A DNA stretch of 64,000 bases, from the NCBI RefSeq assembly GCF_009900715.1, contig NZ_JAAAJC010000003.1:310001-374000 (forward strand). Direction: 5' to 3'. How positions within the stretch are numbered: position 1 is the stretch's first letter; each line of letters opens with the position of its first letter. The stretch is from Halococcus salsus (GTDB lineage Archaea; Halobacteriota; Halobacteria; Halobacteriales; Halococcaceae). Below, piece after piece: positions 1,528-62,256 of the stretch. Made by a program: the position numbers and the translations under genes. The notes beneath the pieces were generated by a model. The model was not told the DNA's origin, ran no database searches, and was given only the letters and a program-made list of their open reading frames with translations.

Positions 1528-1537
1528 GCCTCGAATA

Positions 1538-3277: not shown

Positions 3278-3278
3278 G

Positions 3279-3767: not shown

Positions 3768-3790
3768 AGCTGGCTATTACTCCACAGCAG

Positions 3791-3797: not shown

Positions 3798-3820
3798 ATG
3801 GTCAAACGAGCGAGACGAGC

Positions 3821-4293: not shown

Positions 4294-4300
4294 GTGTGTA

Positions 4301-4353: not shown

Positions 4354-4615
4354 TCAAATCGTCTCCGAACAGTAGCCACATTGGATTTTCTACGTCTTTT
4401 TATCGAACAATGAGAGATCGTGCCCAGGAATGAGTTATTTCACGAGGACGGAGTGTGCCCGCTTGGCGTTCGAGTCGGGAGTGCCGGGTGCCGTTCCAGC
4501 CTCCTGTTTCGAGAGCCGGAACGAAAGCGGATCACGGAAACCGTGTCGGCCCCCGAGAGCCGCCGTCCGAACGACTAAGACGAACGGCCGATCACGATCG
4601 ATACAGATATTCGCC

Positions 4616-4813: not shown

Positions 4814-4820
4814 TCCGCGT

Positions 4821-4937
4821 TCAGTCCGACGCCGAACGGCACTCGGGACAAGCGCCGTCCTCGAGATACTCTTCGAGAACCTTCTCGCCACATTCGTCGC
4901 ACGCTTCGAGCGGGGTGTCCCTCGATTGCGTCGCCAT
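4821..4937 (-). CDS. Zinc-ribbon micro-protein, 38 aa
   Basis: 38 aa with CDEC (13-16) and CPEC (30-33), so two CX2C knuckles 13 residues apart around an acidic loop. TTATAA at 4961-4966 is centred ~26 nt upstream of the ATG, consistent with a leaderless transcript and with a real gene. The layout is close to that of the 40-aa protein at 55685-55807 in the accessory region. Confidence 0.65.
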   Translation of the reverse strand: MATQSRDTPLEACDECGEKVLEEYLEDGACPECRSASD

Positions 4938-5157
4938 ACTTGCTCTTGCAGGCCCATTCATTATAACAGTTCGGGAAAGGTGGCTCGGTCGCCCACGAGA
5001 AGAGGGGAGTGTTCGTCCCTGCTGTCGAACCGTGACCCCGCCGCGGACGACGTACACGTCTGGACGGCATACACGGTCGCGAGGATATACAAACGGTCGG
5101 CGACTGGCCATCGAAAGCATGGGTCTGATACGGTCGTCGTCCGTACGACCGGTAGGC

Positions 5158-5379
5158 ATGCGACCACCGATGTACCGGTGTGAATCGTGTGGTGAGGGGG
5201 TCTCCCTCACCGTCGTCACGGAACGGCCCGACAGCCGGTCGACGCTCGAATACAGCTGTTCGTGCAGAATGAAGCGGGTTCGAGCGGCCGACCTCGAACG
5301 ACTCGGCGACCTCCCCGAGGGGGAGCTGCCTCACAACTGGGAGCGCGTGAACGTGTTCGAACCGAGCGCGAGCGCGTAG
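5158..5379 (+). CDS. Small zinc-ribbon-like protein, 73 aa
   Basis: 73 aa from ATG 5158. CESC near the start and a second Cys pair in YSCSCRMKRV (about 34-43) suggest a zinc knuckle. The C-terminal half is acidic and ends in a short helix. An in-frame ATG at 5119 lies ~32 nt after the TATA-like GATATAC (5084-5090), so a 13-residue longer start is possible. No known function. Confidence 0.55.
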   Translation: MRPPMYRCESCGEGVSLTVVTERPDSRSTLEYSCSCRMKRVRAADLERLGDLPEGELPHNWERVNVFEPSASA

Positions 5380-5572
5380 CCGACCGTGCGCGGCGAGCGA
5401 CGCCCTCGACACGCTCGAAGAGGGCGCGGTCTCGCATCGTGCAGTCGAGTGGATACGGTGCGAACGCAGCGACGTTTAGCGAAAGGTCCGTGGGAGTAAA
5501 CATAAGAGCTGGAACCGTCGACCTAATCATCTAGAGCGGTCATTGACAGGTCGGACGACGGAAAGACCGTCC

Positions 5573-6214
5573 ATGACGAACGACGACGACAAGCAGAACG
5601 GCATCGGTCGACGAACGGTTCTCCGTCGCGTCGGGGCACTCGGCGTCGCCGGGGCGGTCGGTGTGGGCGGGCTCCAGTATTTCGGGACGGAGCCGGTGTT
5701 CGCGCTCGAAGAGCGGACCTTCACCGCCGACGACGTCTCCATCACGTCCGGGGACGGCTCCATCAACGACATCTGGTTCAAGCCGGTGCCGACCTACTCG
5801 TGGTCGGCGCTCGACTCCTCACCGGAGTCGATCACGTTCACCCTCTCGGCGGAGCGCAGCGGTCTCGACGGCCAGTACGAGGAGCTGGGAAGCGAAACCA
5901 AGCCCCTCTCCGAGGCCGGCCAGTCGGGCGAGGGCGAGTACACGTTCGACGAGAAACTCAGCCTGATCACGGAGTCGGCGTCGTGGAGCGAGGAGCGCTT
6001 CGAGGCCGAAGAGGACGGTGCGTCCGAGGACGTGGGCCCGATCGGTGTGCGGATCGAGGCCGAGATCGAGACGTCGACGGGTGAGACGCACACCGATACC
6101 AACGAGTCCGAATTCACCGTCGACGTCACGAACGAACAGGTCCAGTTCGGTGGTCACGAGGGCGACAGCGGCACGGGCGGCGTCGGCGGGGTCGCCGGCA
6201 CCGGTGGGAGCTAA
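5573..6214 (+). CDS. Tat-exported secreted protein of unknown function
   Basis: 213 aa. The N-terminus carries a twin-arginine signal, GRRTVLRRVGALGVAGAVG (about 13-31), so the folded protein is probably exported. The mature part is beta-rich with repeated acidic and Ser/Thr stretches. From about residue 110 to 190 it alternates strands in a sandwich-like pattern, and the C-terminus is Gly-rich (GTGGVGGVAGTGGS). There are no catalytic motifs. Start taken at ATG 5573 (MTNDDDKQ), which gives the Tat motif a normal 12-residue n-region; an ATG at 5543 would add 10 residues. The ~190 bp before it hold no gene. Confidence 0.6.
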   Translation: MTNDDDKQNGIGRRTVLRRVGALGVAGAVGVGGLQYFGTEPVFALEERTFTADDVSITSGDGSINDIWFKPVPTYSWSALDSSPESITFTLSAERSGLDGQYEELGSETKPLSEAGQSGEGEYTFDEKLSLITESASWSEERFEAEEDGASEDVGPIGVRIEAEIETSTGETHTDTNESEFTVDVTNEQVQFGGHEGDSGTGGVGGVAGTGGS

Positions 6215-6404
6215 GCACCCCTGGAGGCCGCTCGCGTCGAACGGGCCGCCCACGTGAGGGGTCACCGGGCGGTCGTGTGACCGCCGGCCGGGGAACCCAA
6301 CAGCTCCGTTGCCGCCGACGAACCACTTTTGTACCGTGCCACTGACGTGTATCTATCGAAGATGAGGGCGATCAGACCAGGCTCGACGAGCGAGGGATGA
6401 GACC

Positions 6405-6554
6405 GTGACCTGTCCCGTCTGTGGCTACCGGGGAGCCTACGACGACGAGATGGACCTCCGGTGTAGTCACGAAGGCTGTGAGAACTACGGCGAGGTGATC
6501 GTCACCGACGAGGTTCCCTCCGCGCAGGCCCCCGAAACGGAGACGAGTGGCTGA
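6405..6554 (+). CDS. CPxCG-type zinc-finger micro-protein, 49 aa (GTG start)
   Basis: 49 aa from GTG 6405; a stop at 6363-6365 limits the frame upstream and no ATG is available. TCPVCGYRGAYDDEMDLRC then HEGC gives two Cys pairs, CX2C and CX4C, the pattern of haloarchaeal CPxCG zinc-finger micro-proteins. The acidic tail ends ETETSG. The ~190 bp between this gene and tRNA-Thr show no gene. Confidence 0.55.
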   Translation: MTCPVCGYRGAYDDEMDLRCSHEGCENYGEVIVTDEVPSAQAPETETSG

Positions 6555-6747
6555 CGATACGGGCGACTGTTCCTGCTCCAGCACCTCGTAGTCCTCGGTT
6601 GGTTCGGGCGTAGCCTACTCGAACTGCGCGCGATCGCACTTTTCATCCGCCAAACCAACCATGAGTGACGGGAGCGGCGACGCGAGTCCGGAGTCAAGCG
6701 TCCAAGCAGCTGAGCTATCGCTTGATGAGAACCGTGAAAACCCGAAA

Positions 6748-6819
6748 AGCCTAGGCCGGGATTTGAACCCGGGGTCTCGTCCTTACCAAGGACGCGCTTT
6801 ACCGCTAAGCTACCCAGGC
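6748..6819 (-). tRNA. tRNA-Thr(GGT)
   Basis: The minus strand folds as a 72-nt cloverleaf. The acceptor GCCTGGG pairs with CCTAGGC (one G-U pair). The D arm is GCTTAGCGGTAAAGC, the anticodon stem CGTCC/GGACG closes the loop TTGGTAA with anticodon GGT, and the T arm CCGGG-TTCAAAT-CCCGG is perfect. No CCA is encoded and no intron is present. Confidence 0.93.
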
Positions 6820-6861
6820 GCCATCCACGACTATCGGCGAATCGCGTTTATCCGTTTCGAT

Positions 6862-7512
6862 TCACGGATCGGTGGCCGACCCGACGCCGGCCGGTTGGAC
6901 CGGGGTGTCGACGTGGGCGGCGAGCGACTCGCGAGTCGTCGGGTCGAACGCGTCGTCCGCCGGCGGGAGTTCCCCGTCGAACGACCCCGCGAGGTCGGCG
7001 ACGAACTCGCGACACGCCGCCGAGGGGTGGACATCGACCGCCGTCAGGCCCGCGACGAGCGCGAGGTCGAGAACGTCGGCTTCGAGCGGGCCGACGGGGT
7101 CGTCCGTCGGCGCGGCGGCGGTCCGGTCCCGACCGAAGGCCCGAACGGTCTCGACAGCGCGTTCGGCGGCCTCCGTTCGCGCGAGGAGGTAGAACCCGCG
7201 GGCGACGAGGACGTCCGCCACGAGGACGTCGAGGTTCGCGTCGGTGTCCTCGTCCTCCCACGGCGCGTCGTGGGCCAGCGCGCGGGTCAATCGGAGCCCC
7301 TCGTAGATGAGCTGGGTGCCCGCGGCGCGGGTGGCGACCGTCCCGAAGCCGACCGGCTCGTCGGCGGCGCGTGCCGACAGGACCACGAGAACGCCGGGGG
7401 CCATCGACCCGCTCTCGACGACCGTCTCGATGGCGTCGCGGAACGCGCCGGGGTCGACGTCACGGACGGCCTCCCGGGCGGCACGACGGACGTGGGAGGC
7501 GTCATCCATCAC
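6862..7512 (-). CDS. Conserved haloarchaeal protein (DUF7114-like)
   Basis: 216 aa, all-alpha and Ala/Val/Asp-rich. Conserved-looking stretches include LIYEGLRLTRALAHD and ANLDVLVADVLVARGFYLLA. The spacing of helices and acidic residues recalls a helical-bundle enzyme such as polyprenyl synthetases, but no complete DDxxD pair is present. I think it is the haloarchaeal family RefSeq calls DUF7114; function unknown. Divergent from the enoyl-CoA hydratase gene with 56 bp between starts. MM at the start leaves two adjacent ATG choices. Confidence 0.6.
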   Translation of the reverse strand: MMDDASHVRRAAREAVRDVDPGAFRDAIETVVESGSMAPGVLVVLSARAADEPVGFGTVATRAAGTQLIYEGLRLTRALAHDAPWEDEDTDANLDVLVADVLVARGFYLLARTEAAERAVETVRAFGRDRTAAAPTDDPVGPLEADVLDLALVAGLTAVDVHPSAACREFVADLAGSFDGELPPADDAFDPTTRESLAAHVDTPVQPAGVGSATDP

Positions 7513-7568
7513 GCTGAAAGAGGCGCGCGGAGGGCAAAGGCCTTTGGAAACCGTACACAGTCGTCGGC

Positions 7569-8252
7569 ATGATACGCACCGAAACCGACGGTCGCGTCGG
7601 CTCGCTGACGATCGACCGCCCGGAGAAACGGAACGCGCTCACCGCCGACGCGCTGACCGCCCTCGAAACCGGGATCGAACGGCTCGAAACCCCAGTTATC
7701 TGCCTTCGCGGTGCGGGACCCGCCTTCTGTGCGGGGGCGGACCTCGACGCGATCGCGGCCCTCGACGGCGAGGGCGCGGCCGAGTTCGCCCGGCGCGGAC
7801 AGCACGTCGCGAACGCCATCGAGGAGACCCAGTCAGTGGTCGTCGCGGCCGTCGACGGTCCGGCGCGCGGCGGCGGGGTCGAACTCGCGCTCGCGTGTGA
7901 CCTCCGGGTCGCCACGCCCGCCGCGACGTTCGCCGAACCCGGTGTGAAGCTCGGGCTGTTCGGCGCGTGGGGCGGCACGCACCGCCTCCCGGCTATCGTC
8001 GGAACGGGCAACGCGCTCGACCTCTCGCTCTCCGGACGGGTCGTCGAGGCCGACGAAGCGCTCCGAATGGGGCTGGTCTCGCGGGTCGTCGCGGATCCGG
8101 CGGCGGTCGTGACCGCACTCGCCGAGAACGACCCCGCCGCGCTTCGAGCGGTGAAGGAGCGCCTGCACGACGACGCGTCGGCAGCGGTTCAGGACGACCG
8201 GGAAGCCGAGGCGTTCGCGGGGCTCGTCGAACGGCGGGGGTCGGAGAAATGA
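7569..8252 (+). CDS. Enoyl-CoA hydratase/isomerase family protein
   Basis: 227 aa, slightly short for a crotonase (usually 250-260). IDRPEKRNALT near the start, the oxyanion-hole segment CLRGAGPAFCAGADL (about 44-58) and DGPARGGGVELALACDLRVA (about 95-114) identify the fold. Active-site Glu candidates lie in AEPGVKLGL. It would hydrate or isomerise an acyl-CoA in the cytoplasm; the substrate cannot be told. No other fatty-acid genes are adjacent. It converges on nadE with 9 bp between stops. Confidence 0.88.
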   Translation: MIRTETDGRVGSLTIDRPEKRNALTADALTALETGIERLETPVICLRGAGPAFCAGADLDAIAALDGEGAAEFARRGQHVANAIEETQSVVVAAVDGPARGGGVELALACDLRVATPAATFAEPGVKLGLFGAWGGTHRLPAIVGTGNALDLSLSGRVVEADEALRMGLVSRVVADPAAVVTALAENDPAALRAVKERLHDDASAAVQDDREAEAFAGLVERRGSEK

Positions 8253-8261
8253 GTCGACGGG

Positions 8262-9104
8262 TTACGGTGCGGGCGGCATCTCGCGTTTGTGCGCGCTCCG
8301 GGCGACGAGGGTCTCGACGTTCTCGATGAGTTCGGGGTCGATATCGAGTTCGCGCGCGGTCGCACTCTTCGAGAGCGGGCCGTCGACGTGGAGCGCGAGC
8401 ACCGCGTCGAGGGTGTCGTAGCTCATCCCCATCTCCTCCTCGTCCGTCTGCCCGACCCACATCCCCGCCGTGGGAGTTTTGTTCACGAGGTCGTCGGGGA
8501 CGCCGACGTGGCTCGCGAGCTGGCGGACCTGCTGTTTGTAGAGGTTGCCGATGGGGAGGCAGTCGACCGCACCGTCGCCGTACTTGGTGTAGTAGCCCGC
8601 GAGCGCCTCGCTCCGGTTGCCGGTGCCGAGCACGATCCGGTTCTCGTGGTTGGCGACGAAGTAACCGAGCACCGCACGGGTCCGAACCCGGACGTTGCCG
8701 ACGGCGGTCCTGAGCGGGTCGGATTCGACCTCGTGGTCCTCGATGGGTTCGGGGAAGGCATCCAGAAAGGCGTCCACGATGGGTTCGATGGCGAGCACGT
8801 CGTACTCGATGCCGAGGTCCTCGGCGACGCACTCGGCGTCGCTCATGTTCCCCTCACTGTTCACCTCGCTCGGCATCACGAGCCCGTGGAGGCCGTCGGT
8901 GCCGAGGGCCTCGACGGTGAGGTAGGCCGTCAGGGTGCTGTCGATACCGCCCGAGAGCCCCAGCACGCCGCCGTCGGCCCCAGCGTCGTCGGCGGTGTCG
9001 GCGATGAACTCGGTGATCCGGTCCCGCGTGGCGTCGAGTTCGTCGTCCGAGAGCGAGAGGTCGAGCGGTGCGTCGGGCCGGACGGCGGATTCGGTGTCGG
9101 ACAT
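8262..9104 (-). CDS. nadE: NH3-dependent NAD+ synthetase NadE
   Basis: 280 aa, the ammonia-dependent length, with no glutaminase domain. The PP-loop LSGGIDSTL is at about 49-57. MPSEVNSEGNMSDAE, LGTGNRSEALAGYYTKYGDGA and the C-terminal KTPTAGMWVGQTDEEEMG are the family's deamido-NAD and ATP-binding elements. It adenylates nicotinic acid adenine dinucleotide and amidates it. The start ATG 9102-9104 gives a 30-residue acidic N-terminus typical of haloarchaeal NadE. The ~147 bp between it and the DUF63 stop are non-coding. Confidence 0.95.
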   Translation of the reverse strand: MSDTESAVRPDAPLDLSLSDDELDATRDRITEFIADTADDAGADGGVLGLSGGIDSTLTAYLTVEALGTDGLHGLVMPSEVNSEGNMSDAECVAEDLGIEYDVLAIEPIVDAFLDAFPEPIEDHEVESDPLRTAVGNVRVRTRAVLGYFVANHENRIVLGTGNRSEALAGYYTKYGDGAVDCLPIGNLYKQQVRQLASHVGVPDDLVNKTPTAGMWVGQTDEEEMGMSYDTLDAVLALHVDGPLSKSATARELDIDPELIENVETLVARSAHKREMPPAP

Positions 9105-9251
9105 GACCGGTCGTAGGAATCCGCGTTACTAATAGCTACCACCTCACCCACAAGTCTGGTCGTTCGGTCGGTTCTTCCGACGACGATCCTAAAAACCAGA
9201 ACTGTCTCGTACTCTGGGCCAAGTTCGTGAAAATCGATCGAGCGGCGGTCG

Positions 9252-10094
9252 TCAGGACGCGATGGTGAACAGGAGCAGGTTGTGTGCGCCGGGGCCGAGC
9301 CCGACGGCGGCGACCGCGCCGAGCAGGAGGGTGCCCTCGCCGGGCTCCTCGCGAACGTAACTCGCCAGGAGGACGAGCACCGCCGCCGCGAGCGCGAGTT
9401 TGGCGACGACGAACAGCCAGCCGGCCCCCAAGATGGGAGCGGTCGGGAGCGTGGCGGCGAACTCGATGATCGCCCGGGAGAACGGGGAGCGCTCGCCGAA
9501 GCCCAGAACGTCGATCCCGACGGCGGTCGAGACGCCGTCGAGCGCGTGGCCGAAGACGCAGAGCCCACCGACCGCGCCGGTCACGCGGGTCGCGGGCACC
9601 AGCCGTCGGAGGGCTGCCCAGACCGTCACTGCGCAGACGACCGCGACCGCCAGCGCCACCGCCGGCCAGACCGGGTGGAGGTCACCGGGTGCGCTCCACA
9701 CGAGCGCCCAGCCGACCACGACGATCGCCAGAACGGCACCCGAGAGACCGACCACGCTCGGGACGGATGGGGGCCGCCAGCGGTCGACGGGGAGGCCGGC
9801 GGCCGCGCTCGCCGCCCAGACCGCACCCGCGAGCACCGCGACCGAGACGTAGACCGTGGGCGAGGAGAAAAAGGGTTTGAGAAGGAACGAGGACGTCTCG
9901 TAGACCTGATAGAGCACGTAACAGGACGACCCGACGACCATCCACGGCGCGAACGAGACCACCACCCGGTCGGTGACGCGCGGGCCGAGCCGACGGAGTG
10001 CGAGCGCCACGCCGGCGAGCGCGAGCGCGAGCACGACGAGATAGGGTAACGGGGGGAGCGTCGACCCCTCGGGGAGGATCTGAAGAACCTGCAT
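9252..10094 (-). CDS. DUF63 family integral membrane protein
   Basis: 280 aa with about eight hydrophobic helices starting at [18 protein letters not shown]. The segment [20 protein letters not shown] with acidic residues next to helices is typical of the archaeal DUF63 family. The role is unknown; a transport or lipid-related function is only speculation. Start at ATG 10092-10094; longer frames upstream run antisense into deoC and are excluded. Divergent from deoC with 81 bp between starts. Confidence 0.82.
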
Positions 10095-10175
10095 AGCGAA
10101 ATCGGCAGTGGGGCGGGCGAAAGCGTTGCGGTCGGCCGACCGCGGAGTTATCCGGGTCGACCGTCTCACGCGGGC

Positions 10176-10820
10176 ATGGACCGCACCGCGCTCGCCGCCG
10201 CCATCGACCACACGGTCTTGGGTCCCGAAACCACCCCAGGGGACGTCGAACGGGTCGTCGGCGAAGCCGCCGAGTACGGCATGAACGCCTGCGTCCCGCC
10301 GTGCTACCTCGACGTCGCCCGCGCGACGGGTCCCGACGTGACCCTCGCCACCGTCGTCGGCTTCCCGCACGGCCAGCACGCCCCTGAGACCAAACGCGAC
10401 GAGGCGGTGCGGGCGTGGGAAGCGGGCGCGGACGAACTCGACGTCGTACTCAACGTCGGGCGGCTCCGCGCGGGCGAGGACGACGCCGTGGCCGACGAAC
10501 TCGCCGAGGTAGTCGCCGGTGTGCCCGTCCCCGTGAAAGTCATCATCGAAGCCCCTCTCTTGGACGACGACGAGAAACACCGTGCGTGCGAGTGCGCCGT
10601 CGCCGCCGACGCCGACTTCGTGAAGACCGCGACCGGGTTCGCCGACGGCGGCGCGACCGTCGCCGACGTCGAACTGATGAGCGACTTTCTACCCGTAAAA
10701 GCCAGTGGAGGAATCGGGAGTTACGAGGAAGCGAACGCGATGTTCGAAGCGGGTGCCGAGCGGATCGGCGCGTCGAGCGGCGTCGCCATCGTCGAGGGGT
10801 TCGACGCGGCGACCGAGTGA
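10176..10820 (+). CDS. deoC: Deoxyribose-phosphate aldolase DeoC
   Basis: 214 aa, the archaeal class I length. [12 protein letters not shown] at the N-terminus, the Schiff-base lysine in FVKTATGF (about 149-156), and [13 protein letters not shown] with the second active-site Lys mark the family. It cleaves 2-deoxyribose-5-phosphate to acetaldehyde and glyceraldehyde-3-phosphate in nucleoside salvage. No other nucleoside-catabolism genes are adjacent; it stands alone. Confidence 0.95.
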
Positions 10821-16477: not shown

Positions 16478-16529
16478 GCCGTAGCGTCAAGCCAAGTTAA
16501 TACATCATATATTCTTGACGGAAATCATT

Positions 16530-17855
16530 TTACCAGCTAGTCTGTCGCCCCAGCACAAATACTAGAAGAGCCATAAGAAACGCACCTGCGAAAGACTCAA
16601 TTATCGAGAGGTACTGGGCGGCTGTGTTTACAGGTTGGATATCTCCATATCCTAGTGTCGTGAACGTGACCGATGAATAATAGAATGCTAGTAGGATTTC
16701 TGAGAGCCATTGTGGTACTTGACTCCCAGAGAGGAATCCGATCCCCACAACCTGCGCATTCACTGGTGGTCCCGATACTGCAAATACTCCAAATATCAGA
16801 TATAGCGGAGTCCAAAGACAAACAGTACCCAGAGAGACCAGAACAACTCGCCACGGGCTTTCACCGTGGGATGATAGAATACTATTCATGGCGTAAGCGA
16901 GCCATCTCAATCGGCGGCCCTCTTCCCAGTACCGCTTTTTTATAGATTCAGCCTTCTGGATGTGGAATTTACGAGCACGGTTTGGTAATGCGTATTCTTC
17001 ATGAAGGGACTGTAAGCGACGATAGGTCCAAATTGCGGCCTCTGTTGGTGTAGAATCCCATTCTTCGAGTGAATCAATATCAGAGTACGGTGTTGATCCA
17101 CCGAATTCGGTGGCGCTATTCATCCTAACTGCAGAGAAATAGGCGTTAAACAATCTAGAATGAGAGAAATTGGCGCTACGAATATCAGTTCTTTTTAGAA
17201 TCGCATCTTCTAAGTTGGACTTGCACAGAACCGCATTCGAGATCTGAGCATCAGTGAAATCTACATTGCGTAGTGTAGTAGATCTGAAACTGCAGTTGGC
17301 TAAGTAGCAATCGCTGAAGTTGGTATTTCTGAAATTAGAGTTAGAGAGGTTAGAACTTCCCAGGTGTGATTTTTGAAATTGACAATCTGGGGCATTTGCG
17401 TTTGAGAGGTCGGTCATTATAAGCTTCGAATTTAATAGTTTGGTTGAAGATAATCTAGCACCTGAAAAATTCGAGTGGTTTAACTTACTGTTGTGAAGCT
17501 CGGCCATAGCAAGATTGCAACCACTGAAATCAATATTTATAAATTTTGAATCTCTCATGTTAGAGTTGCGGATATTACAGTTAACAAAAGATATCTCGTC
17601 GTCTCTTTCAAATTCGACTTCTCGCAGATAAGCATAGTCTAAGCGCTCTGGAATAGATGATCTTGCGTTTCTAAGCTCATCAGCTGGCTTTCTTTTCTCC
17701 TCTGTATGCCAGATGCAAAAGTCATTATCTTGCCATGTAGAGCGCCAACAACAGACCCCTCCTGGTCCGATCAGCTCACCATGCTCTTCAAGCATCCTCT
17801 TGCTCCCCCAATCTGCTGTATAGCCGCAAACAGAGTCCGGAGTGGACTCACTCAT
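16530..17855 (-). CDS. Pentapeptide-repeat protein fused to a two-helix potassium channel
   Basis: 441 aa. Residues 1-65 hold a Cys/His-rich head (C-G-Y, then CCW, FCIWH) that could bind zinc. About 75-245 is an uninterrupted pentapeptide-repeat solenoid (elements such as NSNLSNSNFRNTNF). A basic helical linker follows (RARKFHIQKAESIKKRYWEE). The C-terminal ~110 residues are one helix (WRVVLVSLGTVCLWTPLYLI), a pore with TFTTLGYGD, the K+ selectivity signature, and a second helix. It is a tetrameric inner-membrane channel by homology, with the repeats as a cytoplasmic sensor by inference. The gene is markedly AT-richer than its neighbours, uses AT-ending codons, and stands alone, which suggests transfer. 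Start at ATG 17853-17855. Confidence 0.85.
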   Translation of the reverse strand: MSESTPDSVCGYTADWGSKRMLEEHGELIGPGGVCCWRSTWQDNDFCIWHTEEKRKPADELRNARSSIPERLDYAYLREVEFERDDEISFVNCNIRNSNMRDSKFINIDFSGCNLAMAELHNSKLNHSNFSGARLSSTKLLNSKLIMTDLSNANAPDCQFQKSHLGSSNLSNSNFRNTNFSDCYLANCSFRSTTLRNVDFTDAQISNAVLCKSNLEDAILKRTDIRSANFSHSRLFNAYFSAVRMNSATEFGGSTPYSDIDSLEEWDSTPTEAAIWTYRRLQSLHEEYALPNRARKFHIQKAESIKKRYWEEGRRLRWLAYAMNSILSSHGESPWRVVLVSLGTVCLWTPLYLIFGVFAVSGPPVNAQVVGIGFLSGSQVPQWLSEILLAFYYSSVTFTTLGYGDIQPVNTAAQYLSIIESFAGAFLMALLVFVLGRQTSW

Positions 17856-17965
17856 AGTAAATACGAGAGAAATGTTCCACAAGTATCTAACGACCAACAT
17901 GGGTAATAACAATCACATACTCGAAATTGAGGAGGCTTGTCTATGAGGCCGACTTCTAAGCGAGA

Positions 17966-18355
17966 TCAGTAGATCCGGGACCCGTTCTCGACCTCGCTCT
18001 CGGGTTGGAGATGAACCACACCACCGTCGCCGTCGTCGTCGGGCTGCGCCCGACTGCTCGCGGAACTACGTTCCGCGCTGTCGACACCGGTCACGAGACA
18101 CTGGCTCTCGAAGCCCGCGATGTTCACCGTCCCGAGGTTCGTCACGGCGACGACCTGCCGACCGACGAGGTCGTCCTTCCCGTAGCGGGTCAGCCCGGCC
18201 GCCGACTGTCTGGTCTCGCCACCGAAGTCGACGTCGAGTTTGTAGAGGTCCTTTCGCGCCTCGGGGAAGTCCTCGACGGAAACGATCTCGCCCACGCGCA
18301 TCTCGACATCCGAGAGAAACGTTTCGGGATCGATGTCGGGTTCGTCGATGCCCAT
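17966..18355 (-). CDS. tRNA-binding (Trbp111/CsaA-like OB-fold) domain protein
   Basis: 129 aa. The OB-fold begins MRVGEIVSVEDFPEARKDLYKLDVDFGG (position 19 on), matching the VGxIxxVexhPxAdkLy pattern of tRNA-binding domains. LTRYGKDDLVGRQVVAVTNLG is the second conserved half. Such stand-alone domains bind the outside corner of tRNA, or act as secretion chaperones in the CsaA case. The acidic C-terminal ~25 residues are a haloarchaeal extension. The start is the ATG just before the acidic IDEPDIDP. Confidence 0.85.
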   Translation of the reverse strand: MGIDEPDIDPETFLSDVEMRVGEIVSVEDFPEARKDLYKLDVDFGGETRQSAAGLTRYGKDDLVGRQVVAVTNLGTVNIAGFESQCLVTGVDSAERSSASSRAQPDDDGDGGVVHLQPESEVENGSRIY

Positions 18356-41871: not shown

Positions 41872-41944
41872 AGTCCCATGGGGTAGCGGCCAATCCTGAA
41901 GCCTTCTGGGGGCTTCGACCCAGGTTCGAATCCTGGTGGGACTA
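41872..41944 (+). tRNA. tRNA-Gln(CTG), probable integration site of the accessory region
   Basis: The 73-nt cloverleaf has acceptor AGTCCCA/TGGGACT and discriminator A. The anticodon stem AAGCC/GGCTT has loop TTCTGGG and anticodon CTG, and the T arm is CCAGG-TTCGAAT-CCTGG. No CCA or intron. From the next base rightward, gene content turns to plasmid- or virus-like small genes. The 3' half of the tRNA is a usual attachment site, but I found no second copy of its 3' end in the window. Confidence 0.93.
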
Positions 41945-44987: not shown

Positions 44988-45287
44988 ATGACACTCACTG
45001 AGATTCCTTCAATAAGTAGTCAGAGAGCCCCTAATTTCGCTCTCAACGAGATTATCGACAGCCACGAATCGCTCCTAAGCAAATCAAGCTTTGTAGGAAA
45101 ACAGGCCCAGGTCGGACAAATTAGAGAACATTGGACAGTCTCCAGTTCCACAGTGTCAGCCAGTGGATCAGATATCCACCAAGCCGATTCCGAGTCAATT
45201 CGTATGCTGAGCGCCCAAGCTATCTACTCAATGCTGGGTGTGAACAAAGGAATTCTAGAAAAATTCGAAGGGAGCAAAGATGACTGA
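44988..45287 (+). CDS. Partner protein co-translated with the OLD-family nuclease, 99 aa
   Basis: 99 aa. Ser-rich N-terminal half with SHESLLSKSSFVGKQAQVGQ, C-terminal helix SAQAIYSMLGVNKGILEKFE. No known domain. Its 3' end overlaps the OLD gene by 8 bp, and the joint low-GC composition indicates one transferred unit. As with small partners in other two-gene nuclease systems it might be an inhibitor, sensor or subunit; this is inference from position. Confidence 0.6.
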   Translation: MTLTEIPSISSQRAPNFALNEIIDSHESLLSKSSFVGKQAQVGQIREHWTVSSSTVSASGSDIHQADSESIRMLSAQAIYSMLGVNKGILEKFEGSKDD

Positions 45288-47184
45288 GGAACGAACCTAC
45301 GTTTCTAGTCTTTCGCTTGAGAATATCGGGAGATTCGAGGATATTACACTCCATATGAATCCATTTACGCTTCTTGTTGGCCCCAATGATGCAGGGAAGA
45401 CAACAGCCTTAGAAGCCTTACAGACGGTATGTGGTCATTCTAATCTAGATTTGCAGCAGGTGCGCCGAGATGAGACAAAAATGACAAGGAGGGCACCGAA
45501 CGCATCAGTTGAAGCTATTATCCAGAACCCGCCAGAAGACTTGGTTGACCGTTCCAATCTTAACAACGGTGATGCTGCAGGACTCAGAATCGAATGGGAA
45601 ATAACAGGGGACACTGAAGAAGATGCGAATTTAGAAACCCCGAACTACTATCTTAGAGAGAGAGTTCCAGAAGACGAACGTCTCCACGAATGGGACTATT
45701 ACGCGCAGACGGAGAAGGAGATCCTAGAGGAATACGGATACAATCCGGGTAGTAATGCTGAAAAGCGAAAAAAGCAATACGAGGAGTTGAAAGCTGAGTT
45801 CCTCCAAAACCCAGAGGATACCGAATTTGGTTGGGTCTCTTGTAGAAAGCAAGAGTTCCGTAGCTTTGCTCCAGCAACCGAGCAAATCGATACAGAAGAT
45901 GTGGATAGTCCACAGAAATTGCTTTCAAAGCTACTTCGCCAAGAGACCGAATCTTTCCTCCACTTGGACGACGACGCTGATGAACCGAGACGAATTGATG
46001 AGCTTCTCGAGATCGAACAACGAGCGACAGAGGCGCTCAATGAACGTCTCGAAAGCCTCTCTGGCAGGATGAACCGTTATCTTCCTGGTATAGAGGAAAT
46101 AACAGTCGATCCTGACTGGAGCTTCGTTAACGGTGCTGATTTTTCTAATATTGTCCTTAGTCGCAATGGTGAATCAATTCCTCTCCAGGAACTGGGCGGT
46201 GGTACGACTGCCCGGTCAGCTCTCTCAATGCTTGAGTGGAGTACAGAGACCAACGATGGAAAGCAATCGGTCATTCGAACAATGGATGAACCCGATCACC
46301 GCCTTCACTTCGACGTCCAACGGAGATTGATCAGTCTTCTCCGAAATGACATCCCTGATGAAGAAAGCTATCTCTCCCAATGCATTGTCTCGACGCACAG
46401 TTTGATTATGGTCGACGCAACCCCTCTCCATGAAGTAGTATATCTCCCTGATGAAGTCGACTTGGAAGAAGAAAGATCTCCGCTACTCACGAGAGACGAA
46501 GCAGAGGCTGGGGAGCTTATGGGGAATATTATGACTGGGTTAGGTCTATCAGCCAGTTGGGTCTATCTTGAGCGAGCGATGATCGTTGTTGAAGGGGCGA
46601 CCGAATACAACTATATTAACGAAATATACCATAAGGTAACCGGATCTACCTTAGTAGAGGATGGAATACAAGTCTGGGATTGCCAAGGATGCGGCCACAT
46701 CGTTAGAACCCTTGAACGCCTTCAGGAAGCGGGCCGGGCTCAAACGTTCGTTATCCTTGACACGGATGCGAAAGACCGAAAAACATCAGATGAAACTCTC
46801 GAACCCGTTCTAGAGGATATGTACGAGGCTGGTGGTTCGGAACCAGAGCTTGTTTGGATCGGTGACAAGGAATTAGAGGACGTGTGGAGAAAAGATGATT
46901 TGAAACGTCTTGCTGAAGAACACTGGCCCCGTGGAGATGGGAACGACTGGAAGGTGAATCATTTTAATTCGGTCGACGAGGCGGAGAAACCCAGCGGAGA
47001 GATTGTCAACGTAATAAAACAAGGTTGCGCACAGAACATTCAGGACTGCCCTAACGTTACCAAAGAACATATTGGACTTAGAATGGGACGTTTAGAGGGC
47101 GTGGACCACCCGGATAAGATTGTTAGCCTTCTAGAATATGCCCATAAATGTTGTAGTCGTGACCGGGAAGTTACTCCTGAATGA
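45280..47184 (+). CDS. OLD-family ATP-dependent endonuclease (AAA ATPase plus TOPRIM)
   Basis: 634 aa. ABC-type ATPase: Walker A VGPNDAGKTTALEAL (about 33-47), signature-like LGGGTTA (about 308), Walker B MDEPDHRLHF (about 334) with the Asp-Glu pair, and H-loop IVSTHS. A helical insertion lies between ~100 and 290. C-terminal TOPRIM: VVEGATEYNY (Glu, about 435) and ILDTDAKD (DxD, about 492). OLD proteins cut DNA and serve in phage exclusion, alone or in Gabija-like and PARIS-like systems. No UvrD-type helicase is adjacent, which argues against Gabija. AT-rich codon use. Confidence 0.88.
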   Translation: MTEERTYVSSLSLENIGRFEDITLHMNPFTLLVGPNDAGKTTALEALQTVCGHSNLDLQQVRRDETKMTRRAPNASVEAIIQNPPEDLVDRSNLNNGDAAGLRIEWEITGDTEEDANLETPNYYLRERVPEDERLHEWDYYAQTEKEILEEYGYNPGSNAEKRKKQYEELKAEFLQNPEDTEFGWVSCRKQEFRSFAPATEQIDTEDVDSPQKLLSKLLRQETESFLHLDDDADEPRRIDELLEIEQRATEALNERLESLSGRMNRYLPGIEEITVDPDWSFVNGADFSNIVLSRNGESIPLQELGGGTTARSALSMLEWSTETNDGKQSVIRTMDEPDHRLHFDVQRRLISLLRNDIPDEESYLSQCIVSTHSLIMVDATPLHEVVYLPDEVDLEEERSPLLTRDEAEAGELMGNIMTGLGLSASWVYLERAMIVVEGATEYNYINEIYHKVTGSTLVEDGIQVWDCQGCGHIVRTLERLQEAGRAQTFVILDTDAKDRKTSDETLEPVLEDMYEAGGSEPELVWIGDKELEDVWRKDDLKRLAEEHWPRGDGNDWKVNHFNSVDEAEKPSGEIVNVIKQGCAQNIQDCPNVTKEHIGLRMGRLEGVDHPDKIVSLLEYAHKCCSRDREVTPE

Positions 47185-48140: not shown

Positions 48141-48995
48141 TTACCAATACATCGCGATAGGACTAACAACACTTGCTGGACCCTTAATAAGCATGTCATC
48201 TTGCTCTAAAGAGATATTCACCTGAGATGCCCAAGACGTCATATTGGCCCGGAATTCAGCCCCAGAACCTTCTTGTGGTGCGTATTTATCGACGATTCGA
48301 GTTAGGTTTACGGGATCCCATGTTTCTCCTGACGAGACTTTATTCTCGACACGACCAAAGACCGTGTATTTACGATCTGATAGAAACTCTTCTTCAGGAG
48401 ACGTTCGCATGAATTCTCGTTCTAGTGGTACCGCAATTGGGTACCCATTGATATCCATTCTGAGGGGGACCGCGGAACCTGTAAACTGGCTCACTAACTG
48501 CTGCACTTGATTTATCTGCTCTAGCTGCTGGGATGAGAGATTATCTGGTAGATTTTCATCGCCGACCTCACTCAGAGTTTCAATTGTGTCTCCTCCAAGA
48601 AGTTCGGTGAACGCGTTCAAGGCGGACTCAAGCTTGAATAGAGACATGGAACTTACCTCACCCTCTAAACGGATAGTATCTCCCCGAGAAGGATCGCCAC
48701 CACTTGTTCCATCGAATACAGGAATATCCTCGCTTTCAACGAGCGATTCAAGCGATTGAAATCGATATGGAGCTAATACCCTCATTGTCGAGGTTACATT
48801 CTCTGTATTTAGCCGACTGTGACTTCCAGAGGCGCGAAAGAAGCTGGGGAGGTTTATTGATCCGCCACCACTCGTTTCAGCTTCAGCGCCAGATTCTTCG
48901 GTAATTTCCTCAAGCACTCCTCTTCCCAGAGATGATAGGTTGCTGTTGAGACTCTCTTCGTTGATGTATACAAAATCCCTCAATGAATCGACCAT
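48141..48995 (-). CDS. DUF6414-like protein, 284 aa
   Basis: 284 aa. It opens MVDSLRDFVYINEESLNSNL followed by LSSLGRGVLEEI, a layout I associate with DUF6414 proteins (a conserved L-R-D-F-V-Y-x-N/D N-terminus). The middle holds a Ser/Gly-rich linker and NTENVTSTMRVLAPYRFQSL. The C-terminal half is alpha/beta with GYPIAVPLEREFM, FGRVENKV and VSPIAMYW. No catalytic motif. AT-rich, alone, antisense to its neighbours. An upstream GTG at 49002-49004 is a possible earlier start. Confidence 0.55.
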   Translation of the reverse strand: MVDSLRDFVYINEESLNSNLSSLGRGVLEEITEESGAEAETSGGGSINLPSFFRASGSHSRLNTENVTSTMRVLAPYRFQSLESLVESEDIPVFDGTSGGDPSRGDTIRLEGEVSSMSLFKLESALNAFTELLGGDTIETLSEVGDENLPDNLSSQQLEQINQVQQLVSQFTGSAVPLRMDINGYPIAVPLEREFMRTSPEEEFLSDRKYTVFGRVENKVSSGETWDPVNLTRIVDKYAPQEGSGAEFRANMTSWASQVNISLEQDDMLIKGPASVVSPIAMYW

Positions 48996-49104
48996 ATATC
49001 TCACATCGAGTGTGTCATTATCAAACTATCGTACAACAAGGACTCTTGAAGCAGTGTTTTCACCGCGACTAGACGGGGTTGCACGAACCCAGAATGCCGC
49101 TCCT

Positions 49105-52819: not shown

Positions 52820-53440
52820 ATGAATACCGAAACCAATCGCGAACGAAACGAGATCGACACTGAGAGTCCGGATAACTCTAATACGCTGGATATCGGTTAC
52901 GCACATCACCAACAGATAGAGGAAATGATCGATATCGTTCGCTACTGCCTCGAAACTCTCAGTTTCGAATTTGACCGATGGGGCGAAGAGCACGTCAAAG
53001 GACCTGGGTTTTATCTCGTGATTGTCTCCGGGACTTCCGTTGAGGAGTATGCTGATCCAATGGGGCGGAACCGGTGGCCAATTGAAACTTGCCAAAACAT
53101 CTTCGGGAACAGTGAGGAGTTTTATCGAGCAGCATCAACCGTCTCAGGAACAATGGATGGTGCGGTTGTCGCTAGCATTGACGGTGCACTCTTAGAGCAG
53201 ATGGTCCGTGTCAAGGACCTAAGTAGTCAAGAACTCAGAGCTCGGACTGGTGAAGGAGTCGGCTACGAAGACTGGATGGGATCTCGACACATGAATGCGC
53301 TCGATACCTCTGTCCGAGACGATGTTGTCGCGACGATTACGCTTAGTGAGGAGAACGGTCGAGTGACAACCTTCATCAACGGAGAATTCACTGACTACAG
53401 CCGAAATGAGGTCGGTGGGCGGTGGCGCGTGCAGCCTTAA
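52820..53440 (+). CDS. Diadenylate cyclase-like protein (DisA_N/DacZ domain)
   Basis: 206 aa. DGAVVASIDGALLEQMVRV (113-131) has the DGA motif; GSRHMNALDTSVRDDVVATI (155-174) sits where the RHRxA motif of c-di-AMP synthases is; LSEENGRVTTFINGEF closes the domain as in DacZ. The second Arg of RHR is replaced by Met, so activity is uncertain. No membrane helix. It may make or sense c-di-AMP, which controls osmotic balance. It converges with an MscS channel gene 275 bp away. Foreign, AT-richer composition. Confidence 0.7.
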   Translation: MNTETNRERNEIDTESPDNSNTLDIGYAHHQQIEEMIDIVRYCLETLSFEFDRWGEEHVKGPGFYLVIVSGTSVEEYADPMGRNRWPIETCQNIFGNSEEFYRAASTVSGTMDGAVVASIDGALLEQMVRVKDLSSQELRARTGEGVGYEDWMGSRHMNALDTSVRDDVVATITLSEENGRVTTFINGEFTDYSRNEVGGRWRVQP

Positions 53441-56625: not shown

Positions 56626-57022
56626 GCAACTGCCGAGCCATTCACTTAGGCGGGCAAACTATCCCACGACGAACCGGCCAGTAGCATCGCTACGGTGATG
56701 CTTCCCGAACGCGCCAAGGAGGTCGGTACGTTCGAGAGAGTGACCGTGGCTGCGGCCTGTCGGTCACTCGCACCTGACTCGCCAGCACCCGAAATCGAAC
56801 AAGAGCGATTCGAATGCTACACCAAGGGGTAGATATCGACGATTTCGTCGCGCAGGCTATCGAAGCCACCGAAAGGAGAGAAATCACTATAGAAAGAGAA
56901 CCGACATAATTGTGGTTGGTGAGCGATATTTCTCGCATTCGCTCACCGGTCTCCAGCCGGTGGAGCATAAAGCCTGCTCAAGCAGAGAAGCACCATTTAT
57001 CGTTTCCGCGCACAGCAACGGT
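56626..57022. other. Gap with one doubtful 44-aa frame
   Basis: A frame from ATG 56698 to TAG 56830-56832 (MLPERAKEVGTFERVTVAAA then PAPEIEQERFECYTKG) has plausible composition but no signals. A second tiny frame overlaps it from 56815. Just before 57023, CATTTATC (56994-57001) is a TATA-like element for the next gene. Confidence 0.3.
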
Positions 57023-58024
57023 GTGAGACAAAAATGGAAAGACACGAAGTTCTACGTCGAGATGGAGTGGCACGATCTGCGGAACCATCCTCGCTGGTGG
57101 CTGCTTCTCAGCGGCAACCGACTCCTCATCGCCGGCGTGACCCTGCTCGTCCTTTTCGTGGGATTCTGGGGTGGCGTCACGAGCGGACTCGTTCCGCTCC
57201 GTGATCAGACGGCGACGCTGTATCTGCTCTTCGCCCTCACCTCCGGGAACATCACGCTCATTACGATCGTCGTCTCGCTCAACCAGCTCATCCTGACGCG
57301 CCACCTAGAATCACCAAGCGACATCGACGACGAGATGAACAGCATGCGCAGCTACCGGGAGAAGGTCCGTGAGACCATTCACCAGCCCGTTACACCGGTC
57401 AGACCGGCGGAGTTCTTCCTGTTGCTCTTTCGCAGCCTCCAGCAGGACCTTCGCTCCCTCGAAGACCACGAGTGGACGCTCGACGATGAGCACGTCGAGC
57501 GGGAGTTCGACGAGACGTTCTCGGACCTCCACGACCACATCGTCGGCATCGTCGAACTCTTGGAAGAATCGGACGCGGGCCTCATCTTCGCGCTGTTCAC
57601 GACGCTCAGCGCGGATTACGAGCGCTACATCGAGACGATCTGGCGACTCCAGTACGAACACGGCGAGCAACTGCCGGAGGCGACCGGCGACACCATCGAA
57701 CGCACCAGAAACATGATAGAGCACATTGGCATTGCCCGACGGATATTCAAGACAACCTACATCCAGTCCGAGCTGACCAGTCTGTCACGACGGTTGCTCT
57801 ACATCGGCTTGCCGGCGCTTCTCGGCACGATTGGGTTCATGCTCCTGTTCACCGCCCCGACGCGGGCGTCGATTGCTCCTGCGGTGCTCGCAGTTGCCAT
57901 CCCGTTTATCGTCACTATCGGGCTTGCGCCAATCGTCGTGCTCGCGTCCTCGATTCTCCGACTCGCCACCCTCACCGGACAAGACACTGCCATGTATTCG
58001 TTTGTCTCCTCGTTCGAGGGCTGA
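57023..58024 (+). CDS. Four-helix membrane protein, paralogue 1 of the cluster family
   Basis: 333 aa. Helices 1-2: RLLIAGVTLLVLFVGFWGGV and NITLITIVVSLNQLILTR; a ~170-residue acidic helical soluble part; helices 3-4: LLYIGLPALLGTIGFMLLF and IPFIVTIGLAPIVVLASSIL. It shares with the 59270 and 60980 proteins the SLNQLIL-type end of helix 2 and the signature FKTTYIQSELTSLSRRLLY before helix 3. I do not recognise the family. GTG 57023 was chosen from a TATA-like box ~26 nt upstream; ATG 57062 is the next choice. Confidence 0.65.
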   Translation: MRQKWKDTKFYVEMEWHDLRNHPRWWLLLSGNRLLIAGVTLLVLFVGFWGGVTSGLVPLRDQTATLYLLFALTSGNITLITIVVSLNQLILTRHLESPSDIDDEMNSMRSYREKVRETIHQPVTPVRPAEFFLLLFRSLQQDLRSLEDHEWTLDDEHVEREFDETFSDLHDHIVGIVELLEESDAGLIFALFTTLSADYERYIETIWRLQYEHGEQLPEATGDTIERTRNMIEHIGIARRIFKTTYIQSELTSLSRRLLYIGLPALLGTIGFMLLFTAPTRASIAPAVLAVAIPFIVTIGLAPIVVLASSILRLATLTGQDTAMYSFVSSFEG

Positions 58025-58272: not shown

Positions 58273-59269
58273 CTCGCAGCACTGATTCCGAGGGATATTC
58301 TATTATTGGTCGAAGAACAGTCGACCTCCATTACTATCCATGTCTTCCGTTCTTTCCTTTGCGTGTAGATTATCCAATGAGGCGCGGAGGGACAGAGAGT
58401 TTTGGAATTGGAGGGCGGTTTAGAGTTCCAAACTTCTCTGACATCATCCAACCACCACCCTTCGTGTCCATTCCCTTATAACGAATATAGAACTAACTGA
58501 GAGTCAACTGTTAATGTGTGAGAGCTGTGGCGTTGTTCGTCCCGTTCGTAACATGGCAAACAAAATGATACCTCACCGGTGGGATAGGCTTCTAACGTTT
58601 ATGAGGTTGTCACCGACCCCGGCCTACTCGCGCTGACGCGCTCGTTGAGGCTGGGGCTTGCATGGCGGACGTTGGAGGCTTTGTAGCGTCCTTCGCCCTT
58701 GTTTGCTGGTGCGGTCGGCCAGCAGCGGCAATTTAATTGGACGTGTCCTCGGACCTTCATGCCTTCCGTCCCACACCGCGTTCGGGAAGGTGTTCGGTCG
58801 TCGTCGTTCCGTCCTTCGGGGGCACGGTGACTGGTGCCCGCCACCGCCGAGATAACCCGTCCTTGGCCACTCGGAAACGTGGCCGGGCACCCCTTACGGG
58901 GCTGTCTGGTGCCCGTCGGTGGTTGTCCGAAGATACGGGTTATCAAGGCCTAAGTCTTGCGGTTCCGGTGTTTGTGCCCAGCTATACGAACGCTCTCCTC
59001 CCCTCCCTACTCGCTCGCTCCTTGAGGAAGGGGACTCCGCGCTACCGACGGTGTTGAAGAACTAGGGTGTTTAAAGAAAAGTCCGATAACCCATTTGAAC
59101 CCTGCTATTTTTGAACCGCTGAACAGAGTGCTTTCAGGAGCAAGCACTATTCCTAATCGCTTTCTCTATTGATAGGGACCATCACAACACCTTCTGCTGA
59201 CTTCAAGCTGCCAGACGAAATCACCAATGTGATATCAGAGTCAGTCACTCTCAAAGAATGCATATGGCT
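58273..59269. other. 1-kb gap: AT-rich part with a 40-aa zinc-like frame, then a GC-rich segment with nested inverted repeats
   Basis: 58514-58636 could encode a 40-aa peptide starting MCESCGVVRPVRN, with CCTTATAAC ~33 nt upstream, but it looks truncated at the GC-rich junction near 58615. The segment 58615-59060 is GC-rich. It holds GATAACCCGT (58851-58860) with its exact inverse at 58935-58944, and inside it CGGGCACC/GGTGCCCG (about 58882-58913). AATTTAATT near 58732 could be a promoter. No protein frame is convincing; an ncRNA or decayed mobile element is possible. Confidence 0.4.
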
Positions 59270-60307
59270 ATGAGTGACACCGGACCAGAATCTACGATAC
59301 GCGAACGAACTGGTGGCGGTCGGCTTCGACTCTGGGTGTTGCTCACTGCAGACCGAACCCTCATCGCGGGGCTATTGACGGTCGGTCTCTTTGTCGTATT
59401 GGTGGCTGTCAGTGTCGTCAACGTCTATCCTCTACGAATGACTATCCGCAACGGAACCCACATCGAGCGGTTGTTTCAGGTGTTTATTATGTCGATCATC
59501 ACAGGAATCACATTGGTTGTCACACTCAACCAACTGGTTCTCTCTCGCGAACTCGGGCCACTCGGCGAAAAGCGCAAGGAGATGTCGGATGCAATGAGCT
59601 TTCGTCAATATATCGAGGAGCTCACTGGATCAGTCGTTCCTCCCGAACCTGCCTCGTTTATGCAGGTGTTCATGCGGTTGAGCAGGGACCGGGCGGACAG
59701 CCTTCAAGAAGCAACAAAGGGCAATTCCGATGACGAATTCCGCGACAGCGTGACGGCACTCAGTGACCAGATACGAATACAGGCAGACGAGGCCGAGGAT
59801 CAACTCTCTGATGCACAGTTCGGCGGATTTGAGGTGATCCCAGCGATCTTGAACTATGACTATTCATGGAAAATATACTCGGCACGACGGCTTCGTTCCG
59901 AACACGCAGAATCGATAAGCGAGAGTGAGCGGGATGCATTCGACGAGCTCATTCAGGTATTGACTCTCTTCGCCCCGGCTCGTGAACACTTCAAGACGCT
60001 CTATTTCAGGCGAGAGCTGGTGGATTTCTCGCGAAACATGCTCTATGCCGGTATTCCTGCCCTCGCAATCACAATATTGGGACTGGTGTATTTCGACCCA
60101 AACTCGTTTGTTGGATCGACGCTGGGAATTGCGAATCTCGTGTTCGCCATCAGTGCGGCGGTTGCCATCGCATCTCTGCCGTTTTTCTTGCTCGTAGCGT
60201 ACATCCTCCGGCTTGGTACGATTGCCCAGCGAACGCTCGCCATCGGCCCGTTCATTCTCCGAAAGTCACAACGATCCGATGAGATCGGGACTGGTGAGAA
60301 CCAATGA
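59270..60307 (+). CDS. Four-helix membrane protein, paralogue 2 of the cluster family
   Basis: 345 aa. RLRLWVLLTADRTLIAGLLT leads into helix 1; helix 2 ends ITLVVTLNQLVLSRELGPLG; the soluble part includes SFRQYIEELTGSVVPPEPAS; FKTLYFRRELVDFSRNMLYA precedes helix 3; the C-terminus RTLAIGPFILRKSQR equals that of paralogue 3 (RTLAIGPFILRSSQR). ATG 59270 (MSDTG) matches the MSDAA start of paralogue 3, although ATGs at 59258 and 59264 exist. It overlaps the following lipoprotein gene by 4 bp. Confidence 0.75.
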   Translation: MSDTGPESTIRERTGGGRLRLWVLLTADRTLIAGLLTVGLFVVLVAVSVVNVYPLRMTIRNGTHIERLFQVFIMSIITGITLVVTLNQLVLSRELGPLGEKRKEMSDAMSFRQYIEELTGSVVPPEPASFMQVFMRLSRDRADSLQEATKGNSDDEFRDSVTALSDQIRIQADEAEDQLSDAQFGGFEVIPAILNYDYSWKIYSARRLRSEHAESISESERDAFDELIQVLTLFAPAREHFKTLYFRRELVDFSRNMLYAGIPALAITILGLVYFDPNSFVGSTLGIANLVFAISAAVAIASLPFFLLVAYILRLGTIAQRTLAIGPFILRKSQRSDEIGTGENQ

Positions 60308-60979: not shown

Positions 60980-62050
60980 TCAGCGCTGGGAGCTCCGCAG
61001 GATGAATGGCCCGATAGCGAGGGTACGTTTTGCGATCGTCGCCACGCGTGCAATGTAGGAGATTAGGAGGAGGAAGGGCAGGCAGGTGACGACGAACGCG
61101 ATGGAGGTCACCCAGACGAGCACCGAGACCCCGAGGACGACCCCCGAGAGCGAACTTCCACCGAGGAAGGTCGTCATGAACCCGGCAACGATCAGCGCCG
61201 GCACTGAGAGGTAGAGGATGTTTTGGGAGAGGCTGATGAGCTCCCACTCGAAGTAGAGGGTCTTGATGTGCTCGCGAGCTGGCCCGAACATCGTGAGTAT
61301 TGTCTTGAGCTCGTCGAGCGCCTGGAAGGTTTCCTCGGAAGCGTCGTCCTGGTAGTCGTCAGCAATGCGTTCGGTTTGGAATACCTTCCAACTGTAGTTG
61401 TAGTTGAGCGCACCGGAGAGGACGGTATATGACCCGAATGACTGGTCTTCGAGTTCGCTTGAGACCGTATCGGCGTTCTCGATCAGGCTGTTGGTGAATT
61501 CGTCCACCTCGCCTCGGAGATCCTCATTGTCGCTACTAGCCACGGCTTCTCGAAGCTTTTCGGCGCGGTCCTTACTTTCGAGGATCAGCGCTCGAAGGAA
61601 TGCCGATGGGTCAGCGGGTGAGGGGGCTCCGGTGAGTTCTTCGGTGTAGTCCCGGAAGTCCATGGTATTACTCATGCGCTCACGCTGCTCGCCGAGTGGA
61701 CCATTCTCTTGGCTAATTACGATTTGAGTGATCGTCAACACAAGCGTGACGCCGGTGATGATCGCCGAGATCATCGTCGAGAACAGCGTCTCAATGGTAT
61801 CCGCAGTCAAGGCGTCGGTAAGGAGATATTGGTAGAAGTAAGTCCCACCGAGGACGAACACCCCGAAGATCAAAAGGCCCAGCAGGCTCGTTACGGCTAA
61901 TCGGTGACCGCTGAGGAACAGCCAGACTTTGAGACGGCTCTCTCCCGAGCGCTCGCGCATTGTGTTCGCAGTCCCAATGTCCTCGGTGCTCTCCTGGTCG
62001 AGCTCAGTATCTTCCTCTTGGGTATCGATAGTATCGGCGGCGTCGCTCAT
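60980..62050 (-). CDS. Four-helix membrane protein, paralogue 3 of the cluster family
   Basis: 356 aa with a 35-residue acidic N-terminal extension (MSDAADTIDTQEEDTELDQE). Then RLKVWLFLSGHRLAVTSLLG into helix 1; helix 2 ends GVTLVLTITQIVISQENGPL; DFRDYTEELTGAPSPADPSA parallels paralogue 2; IKTLYFEWELISLSQNILYL precedes helix 3; and it ends RTLAIGPFILRSSQR. Closer to paralogue 2 than to paralogue 1. Its start overlaps the stop of the DUF4177 gene (ATGA), so the two are co-translated. Confidence 0.75.
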   Translation of the reverse strand: MSDAADTIDTQEEDTELDQESTEDIGTANTMRERSGESRLKVWLFLSGHRLAVTSLLGLLIFGVFVLGGTYFYQYLLTDALTADTIETLFSTMISAIITGVTLVLTITQIVISQENGPLGEQRERMSNTMDFRDYTEELTGAPSPADPSAFLRALILESKDRAEKLREAVASSDNEDLRGEVDEFTNSLIENADTVSSELEDQSFGSYTVLSGALNYNYSWKVFQTERIADDYQDDASEETFQALDELKTILTMFGPAREHIKTLYFEWELISLSQNILYLSVPALIVAGFMTTFLGGSSLSGVVLGVSVLVWVTSIAFVVTCLPFLLLISYIARVATIAKRTLAIGPFILRSSQR

Positions 62051-62256
62051 TGAGAATCCGTTGATTCCCCGCGTGGCCGCTTGAGGACGAGAAACTTGGT
62101 GCCTCCACCAGTGTATTCGATAGTACTGACGAGTTCCCAACCCTCCGCTCCGAGTTGGTTGAGTTCCTGAATAGGGTCGCTCGCCTCTTTCTTGGTCGCT
62201 TCTCGCGGTGGGCGAAGCGTGTAGTATTCATACTCCGATGGTTGGTCCGTGGTCAT
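62047..62256 (-). CDS. DUF4177 family protein, 69 aa
   Basis: 69 aa. EYEYYTLRPPREATKK then LNQLGAEGWELVSTIEYTGG and TKFLVLKRP follow the DUF4177 pattern (aromatic strand, N-xx-G-xx-GWELV, strand, FLKRP). Function unknown; family members are small cytoplasmic proteins. Upstream gene of paralogue 3, overlapping it. Start at ATG 62254-62256. Confidence 0.85.
   Translation of the reverse strand: MTTDQPSEYEYYTLRPPREATKKEASDPIQELNQLGAEGWELVSTIEYTGGGTKFLVLKRPRGESTDSQ

Follow-up and report, generated by a model that had tools for sequence, protein, structure and literature searches.

OLD-family proteins are assigned to classes by their partner genes, and what controls the solitary members has yet to be settled (PMC10568477). 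At a locus of Halococcus salsus an OLD gene begins inside the end of a short open reading frame, which raises the question of whether the small frame encodes a partner of the OLD protein, as an initial annotation had proposed when it described the two as a distinct defence module. The locus lies in a stretch of 64,000 nt (assembly GCF_009900715.1, contig NZ_JAAAJC010000003.1, positions 310,001-374,000 of the forward strand), hereafter the window, to which the coordinates below refer unless another source is named. Our best reading is that this OLD belongs to an effector lineage whose small upstream gene is exchangeable.

Results

A fused ABC ATPase and TOPRIM domain in one intact gene

The larger frame (45280-47184, + strand) encodes a protein of 634 aa in which an ABC ATPase (AAA_15, E=1.8e-25) and a C-terminal TOPRIM domain (OLD-like_TOPRIM, PF20469, E=2.4e-9) are joined in one chain with intact motifs, the arrangement that defines the OLD family. 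All on the + strand, we located Walker A (GPNDAGKT, residues 34-41, 45379-45402), the Walker B region (VIRTMDEPD, residues 331-339, 46270-46296), the H-loop (STHS, residues 371-374, 46390-46401) and the TOPRIM motifs (VVEGATE, residues 436-442, 46585-46605; LDTD, residues 493-496, 46756-46767). The frame and its motifs had been recognised in the initial annotation, and the key positions proved invariant in relatives: Walker A, DEPD, THS, VEG-x-x-E, ELED (residues 531-534, 46870-46881) and a distal lysine, K595 (47062-47064), are all kept in an alignment with 8-9 diverse OLD proteins, down to 18-25% identity. By alignment with the residue map of Schiltz et al. (PMC7049728), E438, D494 and D496 would bind metal A and E442, E531 and E533 metal B, the ELED segment probably supplying ligands of the latter. 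K595 falls at the position of the catalytic lysine of class 2 enzymes, which makes it a candidate for the role of Lys562. Compared with its orthologues the gene has a dN/dS of about 0.08 (0.07-0.13), indicative of strong purifying selection. We take the protein to be a putative nuclease, probably with a role in defence. Single-sequence structure predictions were uninformative for both this protein (pLDDT 36) and the product of the small frame (pLDDT 44).

The overlapping 99-aa frame

The small frame (44988-45287, + strand) encodes 99 aa and shares 8 bp with the OLD gene (45280-45287), both frames standing exactly where they had been annotated. Within its end, 5 nt before the OLD ATG, lies a Shine-Dalgarno-like GGGAG (45270-45274, + strand) that could serve the OLD gene. 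When the 711-bp region was shuffled by mononucleotides, 3.5% of the shuffles had a frame of at least 99 aa on the + strand. In codon usage the frame exceeds the shuffles (z=2.95) and outscores the other five frames. Lower scores were obtained for two of four 99-codon segments of OLD and for all four segments of the neighbouring DUF6414 gene, and higher ones for most other genes of the island. The coding signal is therefore weak, and the frame is probably, not certainly, coding; if so, the 8-bp overlap makes it likely to be translated together with OLD.

The 99-aa protein had been described as unrecognised, and so it remains, having no match in Pfam, PADLOC, NCBIfam or the PDB. Homologues of it beside OLD genes were looked for as the mark of a conserved partner, and none was present anywhere in the 392 genomes of the order (haloarchaea), in 72,556 plasmid records, in 50,697 phage records or in viral contigs. 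With phrog_18099 there was no more than a weak match (E=0.01, and 0.033 in the genome search), which we set aside. The gene is unique to the H. salsus genome in everything we searched. Further, all full-length orthologues of OLD carry another gene in that slot, as described below, so the proposal that the 99-aa protein is a conserved OLD partner does not hold; lacking any homologue, it might be no partner of OLD.

The locus in an AT-rich region

The initial annotation had also singled out the base composition of the pair. Its GC content is indeed low (about 47%), but this is not special to the two genes, being common to a region of at least 20 kb: GC is 65-70% until ~41 kb and, past ~43 kb, stays at 46-60% up to the end of the window at 64 kb. 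A separate AT-rich patch (16501-18000, about 43% GC) interrupts the GC-rich part. The pair lies near the edge of the AT-rich region, 3 kb past a tRNA-Gln gene (41872-41944). We considered insertion of the island at this tRNA and rejected it, as no duplicated tRNA end of at least 12 bases was found out to the end of the contig.

Nearby genes encode DUF6414, sulfatase, DAC-like, MscS and DUF2267 proteins, among others, the next sizeable gene downstream of OLD being the convergent DUF6414 gene (48141-49004). Neither a helicase nor a reverse transcriptase was found among the neighbouring genes examined, which bears out the annotation of an OLD ATPase/TOPRIM protein without a UvrD-type helicase. 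The DAC-like protein (206 aa, 52820-53440) has a weak DisA-type DAC match below the Pfam cut-off and is possibly a cyclic nucleotide synthase. Three predicted membrane-like proteins (56912-58024, 59258-60307 and 60980-62140), with no Pfam match, are of similar size and share phrases, and are probably paralogues.

A KTSC gene precedes OLD in haloarchaeal orthologues

Homologues of the window OLD at E<=1e-20 are present in only 4 of the 392 genomes of the order. Full-length orthologues, with 71-75% identity, were found in the genomes G211, G198, G378 and G732 and on the Haloferax alexandrinus plasmid pBNX82-4; since the plasmid and G378 match at 99.9% identity over 9 kb, the two are counted once, leaving four independent loci. 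In all four, a 70-aa KTSC gene lies directly upstream of OLD, at a gap of about 50 bp, and its dN/dS of 0.04-0.15 indicates purifying selection. KTSC is rare elsewhere in the order: of 36 genomes, 4 have a match above the cut-off, one as a gene of its own and the others as part of longer ORFs. A chance adjacency of KTSC and OLD is therefore very unlikely. A fragment of a 68%-identical OLD was also seen on a contig labelled as a PVC group bacterium MAG, which is possibly a misbinned haloarchaeal contig.

Three longer haloarchaeal ORFs (436-529 aa) that carry KTSC at their C-terminus resemble virus portal proteins. The occurrence of KTSC on the viral as well as the defence side could be meaningful.

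DNA homology between the window and the orthologous loci starts at 45281-45299, that is, inside the OLD start codon or shortly past it. Upstream of this break there is no KTSC gene in H. salsus: neither KTSC nor the WYL-type gene described below has a match in the window, and KTSC is absent from the whole genome (95% complete). The upstream gene has therefore been replaced, or lost with another frame now standing there. The possibility that the 99-aa protein is itself a diverged or decayed KTSC or WYL protein was rejected, no frame of the window matching either profile.

Small upstream genes in distant relatives

The pairing extends beyond the haloarchaea. In two genomes of the same phylum from outside the order (G564 and G532), KTSC ends 0-1 bases before the OLD start. 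A query made of fused KTSC and OLD recovered the pair on Streptomyces plasmids, in three of the eight OLD loci examined (L025, L026 and L028); the other five OLDs of the group (L012, L013, L027, L029 and L030) have no KTSC, and the small partner is therefore not obligatory. In one archaeal genome (G577) and on the Deinococcus plasmid pDrdII, the place of KTSC upstream of OLD is taken by a WYL-type gene of 96-97 aa, which on the plasmid overlaps OLD by 4 bp. Its Pfam WYL score of 17.4 bits is below the cut-off of 21.8; the PADLOC WYL models match it and the record names it WYL. The claim of a small co-directional gene upstream of OLD is thus supported for the lineage, where it recurs with KTSC (haloarchaea, two other archaea, Streptomyces) or a WYL-type protein (one archaeon, Deinococcus) in that position, and is not supported for the 99-aa protein as a conserved partner. 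Both kinds of small gene were seen at one locus of G198 (L008, reverse complement 8083-8897), where a HerA remnant and KTSC-OLD are closely preceded by a WYL-type gene of 96 aa. Searching viral contigs with an alignment of diverse OLD proteins returned only N-terminal matches to the Walker A region, without KTSC or WYL.

In a tree of 26 rows, the window OLD groups with the KTSC-linked orthologues (support 100/100), and all OLDs linked to KTSC or WYL-type genes fall in one wider group (96/93), with P2 Old and another haloarchaeal OLD clade outside; branches are long and the deeper order is unsure. By its position the window OLD is therefore a member of this lineage, while lacking a KTSC or WYL gene directly upstream. 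Within the group, OLDs with KTSC are intermingled with those that have a WYL-type partner, a pattern that suggests repeated exchange or loss of the small gene.

Association with DNA-end-processing genes

In G211 (L007, reverse complement 755-10641), KTSC and OLD are the last of a co-directional run of Mre11, Rad50, NurA, HerA, KTSC and OLD, Mre11 and Rad50 being assigned from sequence and order; a large ORF resembling a DUF262 protein (putative) follows. The same order of NurA, HerA, KTSC and OLD is found on pBNX82-4, with an insertion before KTSC, and there the NurA and HerA domains are recognised by Pfam and a Rad50-like gene is also present. In G198, and apparently in part in G732, KTSC-OLD lies beside a divergent Mre11-Rad50 pair, and G198 retains a remnant of HerA. 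Two of the Streptomyces plasmid OLDs have SbcD and SbcC genes behind them. Several OLD relatives have no adjoining Mre11-Rad50 or HerA-NurA genes. P2 Old kills recBC cells, and DNA unprotected by RecBCD is the target of Gabija (PMC7049728, PMC12407980); with these precedents it is plausible that an OLD of this kind would watch DNA-end processing.

Discussion

The reading that we prefer, and hold tentatively at a little short of an even chance, is that the window OLD is an ATP-controlled nuclease of a lineage with a small upstream gene, and that here an unrelated 99-aa gene has replaced KTSC and fills its slot. A dimer of the ABC ATPase with its TOPRIM domains would be held inactive, or targeted, by the small protein made just before it, and would be released upon entry of a virus or plasmid, the trigger probably being disturbed DNA ends or the end-processing machinery itself (Mre11-Rad50, HerA-NurA). 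In H. salsus the replacement would be translated with OLD through the overlap. In this reading the small upstream gene would be a functional partner of OLD in the relatives. The window may hold a rare variant that has acquired a new small gene, or else an OLD from which KTSC was lost. A broader proposal, which we consider rather doubtful, is that of a modular defence family in which the OLD lineage swaps the small sensor or regulator encoded ahead of it (KTSC, WYL-type or 99-aa) and guards the DNA-end-processing machinery, the latter part resting on the presence of OLD in Mre11-Rad50-NurA-HerA or SbcCD operons.

That KTSC has simply been lost, leaving an OLD as solitary as the class 1 proteins P2 Old and YbjD behind a chance or leader ORF, we regard as a real possibility, if somewhat less probable than replacement. 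The ORFan nature of the 99-aa frame, the rate at which shuffling produces such frames and the several OLDs of the same group without a small gene all agree with it, as does the best PDB match of the OLD profile, the class 1 TsOLD (6p74, E=2.6e-24). On the other side, the codon usage of the frame exceeds that of the shuffles, its stop overlaps the OLD start, and the GGGAG in its end is placed to serve OLD. If the frame is a real gene, it could alternatively encode an antitoxin that evolves fast and counters a toxic OLD nuclease: a small first gene overlapping the second is the order typical of toxin-antitoxin pairs, and OLD proteins can be toxic (PMC7049728, PMC13261556). However, the small genes of the relatives encode conserved KTSC or WYL domains, which are not typical antitoxins, and some relatives have no small gene whatsoever, which makes this improbable. 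Least probable, and in our judgement decidedly so, is a housekeeping role in DNA repair or the cell cycle. One archaeal OLD, Cran1 of Sulfolobales, does act in the cell cycle (PMC12796447), and the Mre11-Rad50-NurA-HerA neighbours of the relatives would fit repair, but patchy presence, carriage on plasmids and location in an AT-rich island are ill-suited to an essential gene.

A lineage that keeps OLD and exchanges the small gene across haloarchaea, other archaea, Streptomyces and Deinococcus would be a natural experiment on how the trigger is sensed and would also offer small, cloneable pairs for testing OLD control, with the window as a natural case of a missing usual partner. We found no description of KTSC-OLD pairs in the literature searched; a survey of ABC-ATPase conflict systems from 2020, to which PMC12839542 refers, may have mentioned them earlier. 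HerA-KTSC-endoDNase systems have been mentioned as unpublished observations (PMC9503650), in which, as in G211, KTSC neighbours HerA and a nuclease; OLD is unnamed in that source, however, and the window lacks both HerA and KTSC.

Among the established OLD classes, GajA of Gabija (class 2) has a similar domain order and length, and E-x3-E, DxD and the distal invariant lysine resemble the class 2 active site, but there is no GajB/UvrD helicase gene here, and in PADLOC the models for GajA give lower scores than those for Old and AriA. The OLD effectors of retrons (class 3) and AriA/AriB of PARIS (class 4) are related through their OLD-type ATPase. Class 3 calls for a reverse transcriptase and an ncRNA beside OLD, and no reverse transcriptase is annotated among the neighbours. 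The best PADLOC match, AriA (9.2e-26), covers the ATPase part only; in PARIS the ATPase and TOPRIM are on separate genes, whereas here both are fused in the 634-aa chain, with no AriB among the nearby genes examined. Cran1 (class 5) is likewise an OLD from archaea, and its gene shares a putative operon with one whose function is unknown. It is, however, essential and passed on vertically, and its neighbour encodes a membrane protein (PMC12796447), whereas the window lineage is patchy and partly plasmid-borne, and the haloarchaeal host together with this distribution speaks against class 5. Class 1 (P2 Old, Thermus scotoductus OLD 6P74) also fuses ABC ATPase and TOPRIM and has no helicase gene. 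By definition its members are single genes, whereas the relatives of the window OLD have a small gene upstream and the window OLD is preceded by the overlapping 99-aa frame as a candidate gene, and the tree places them in a lineage apart from P2 Old.
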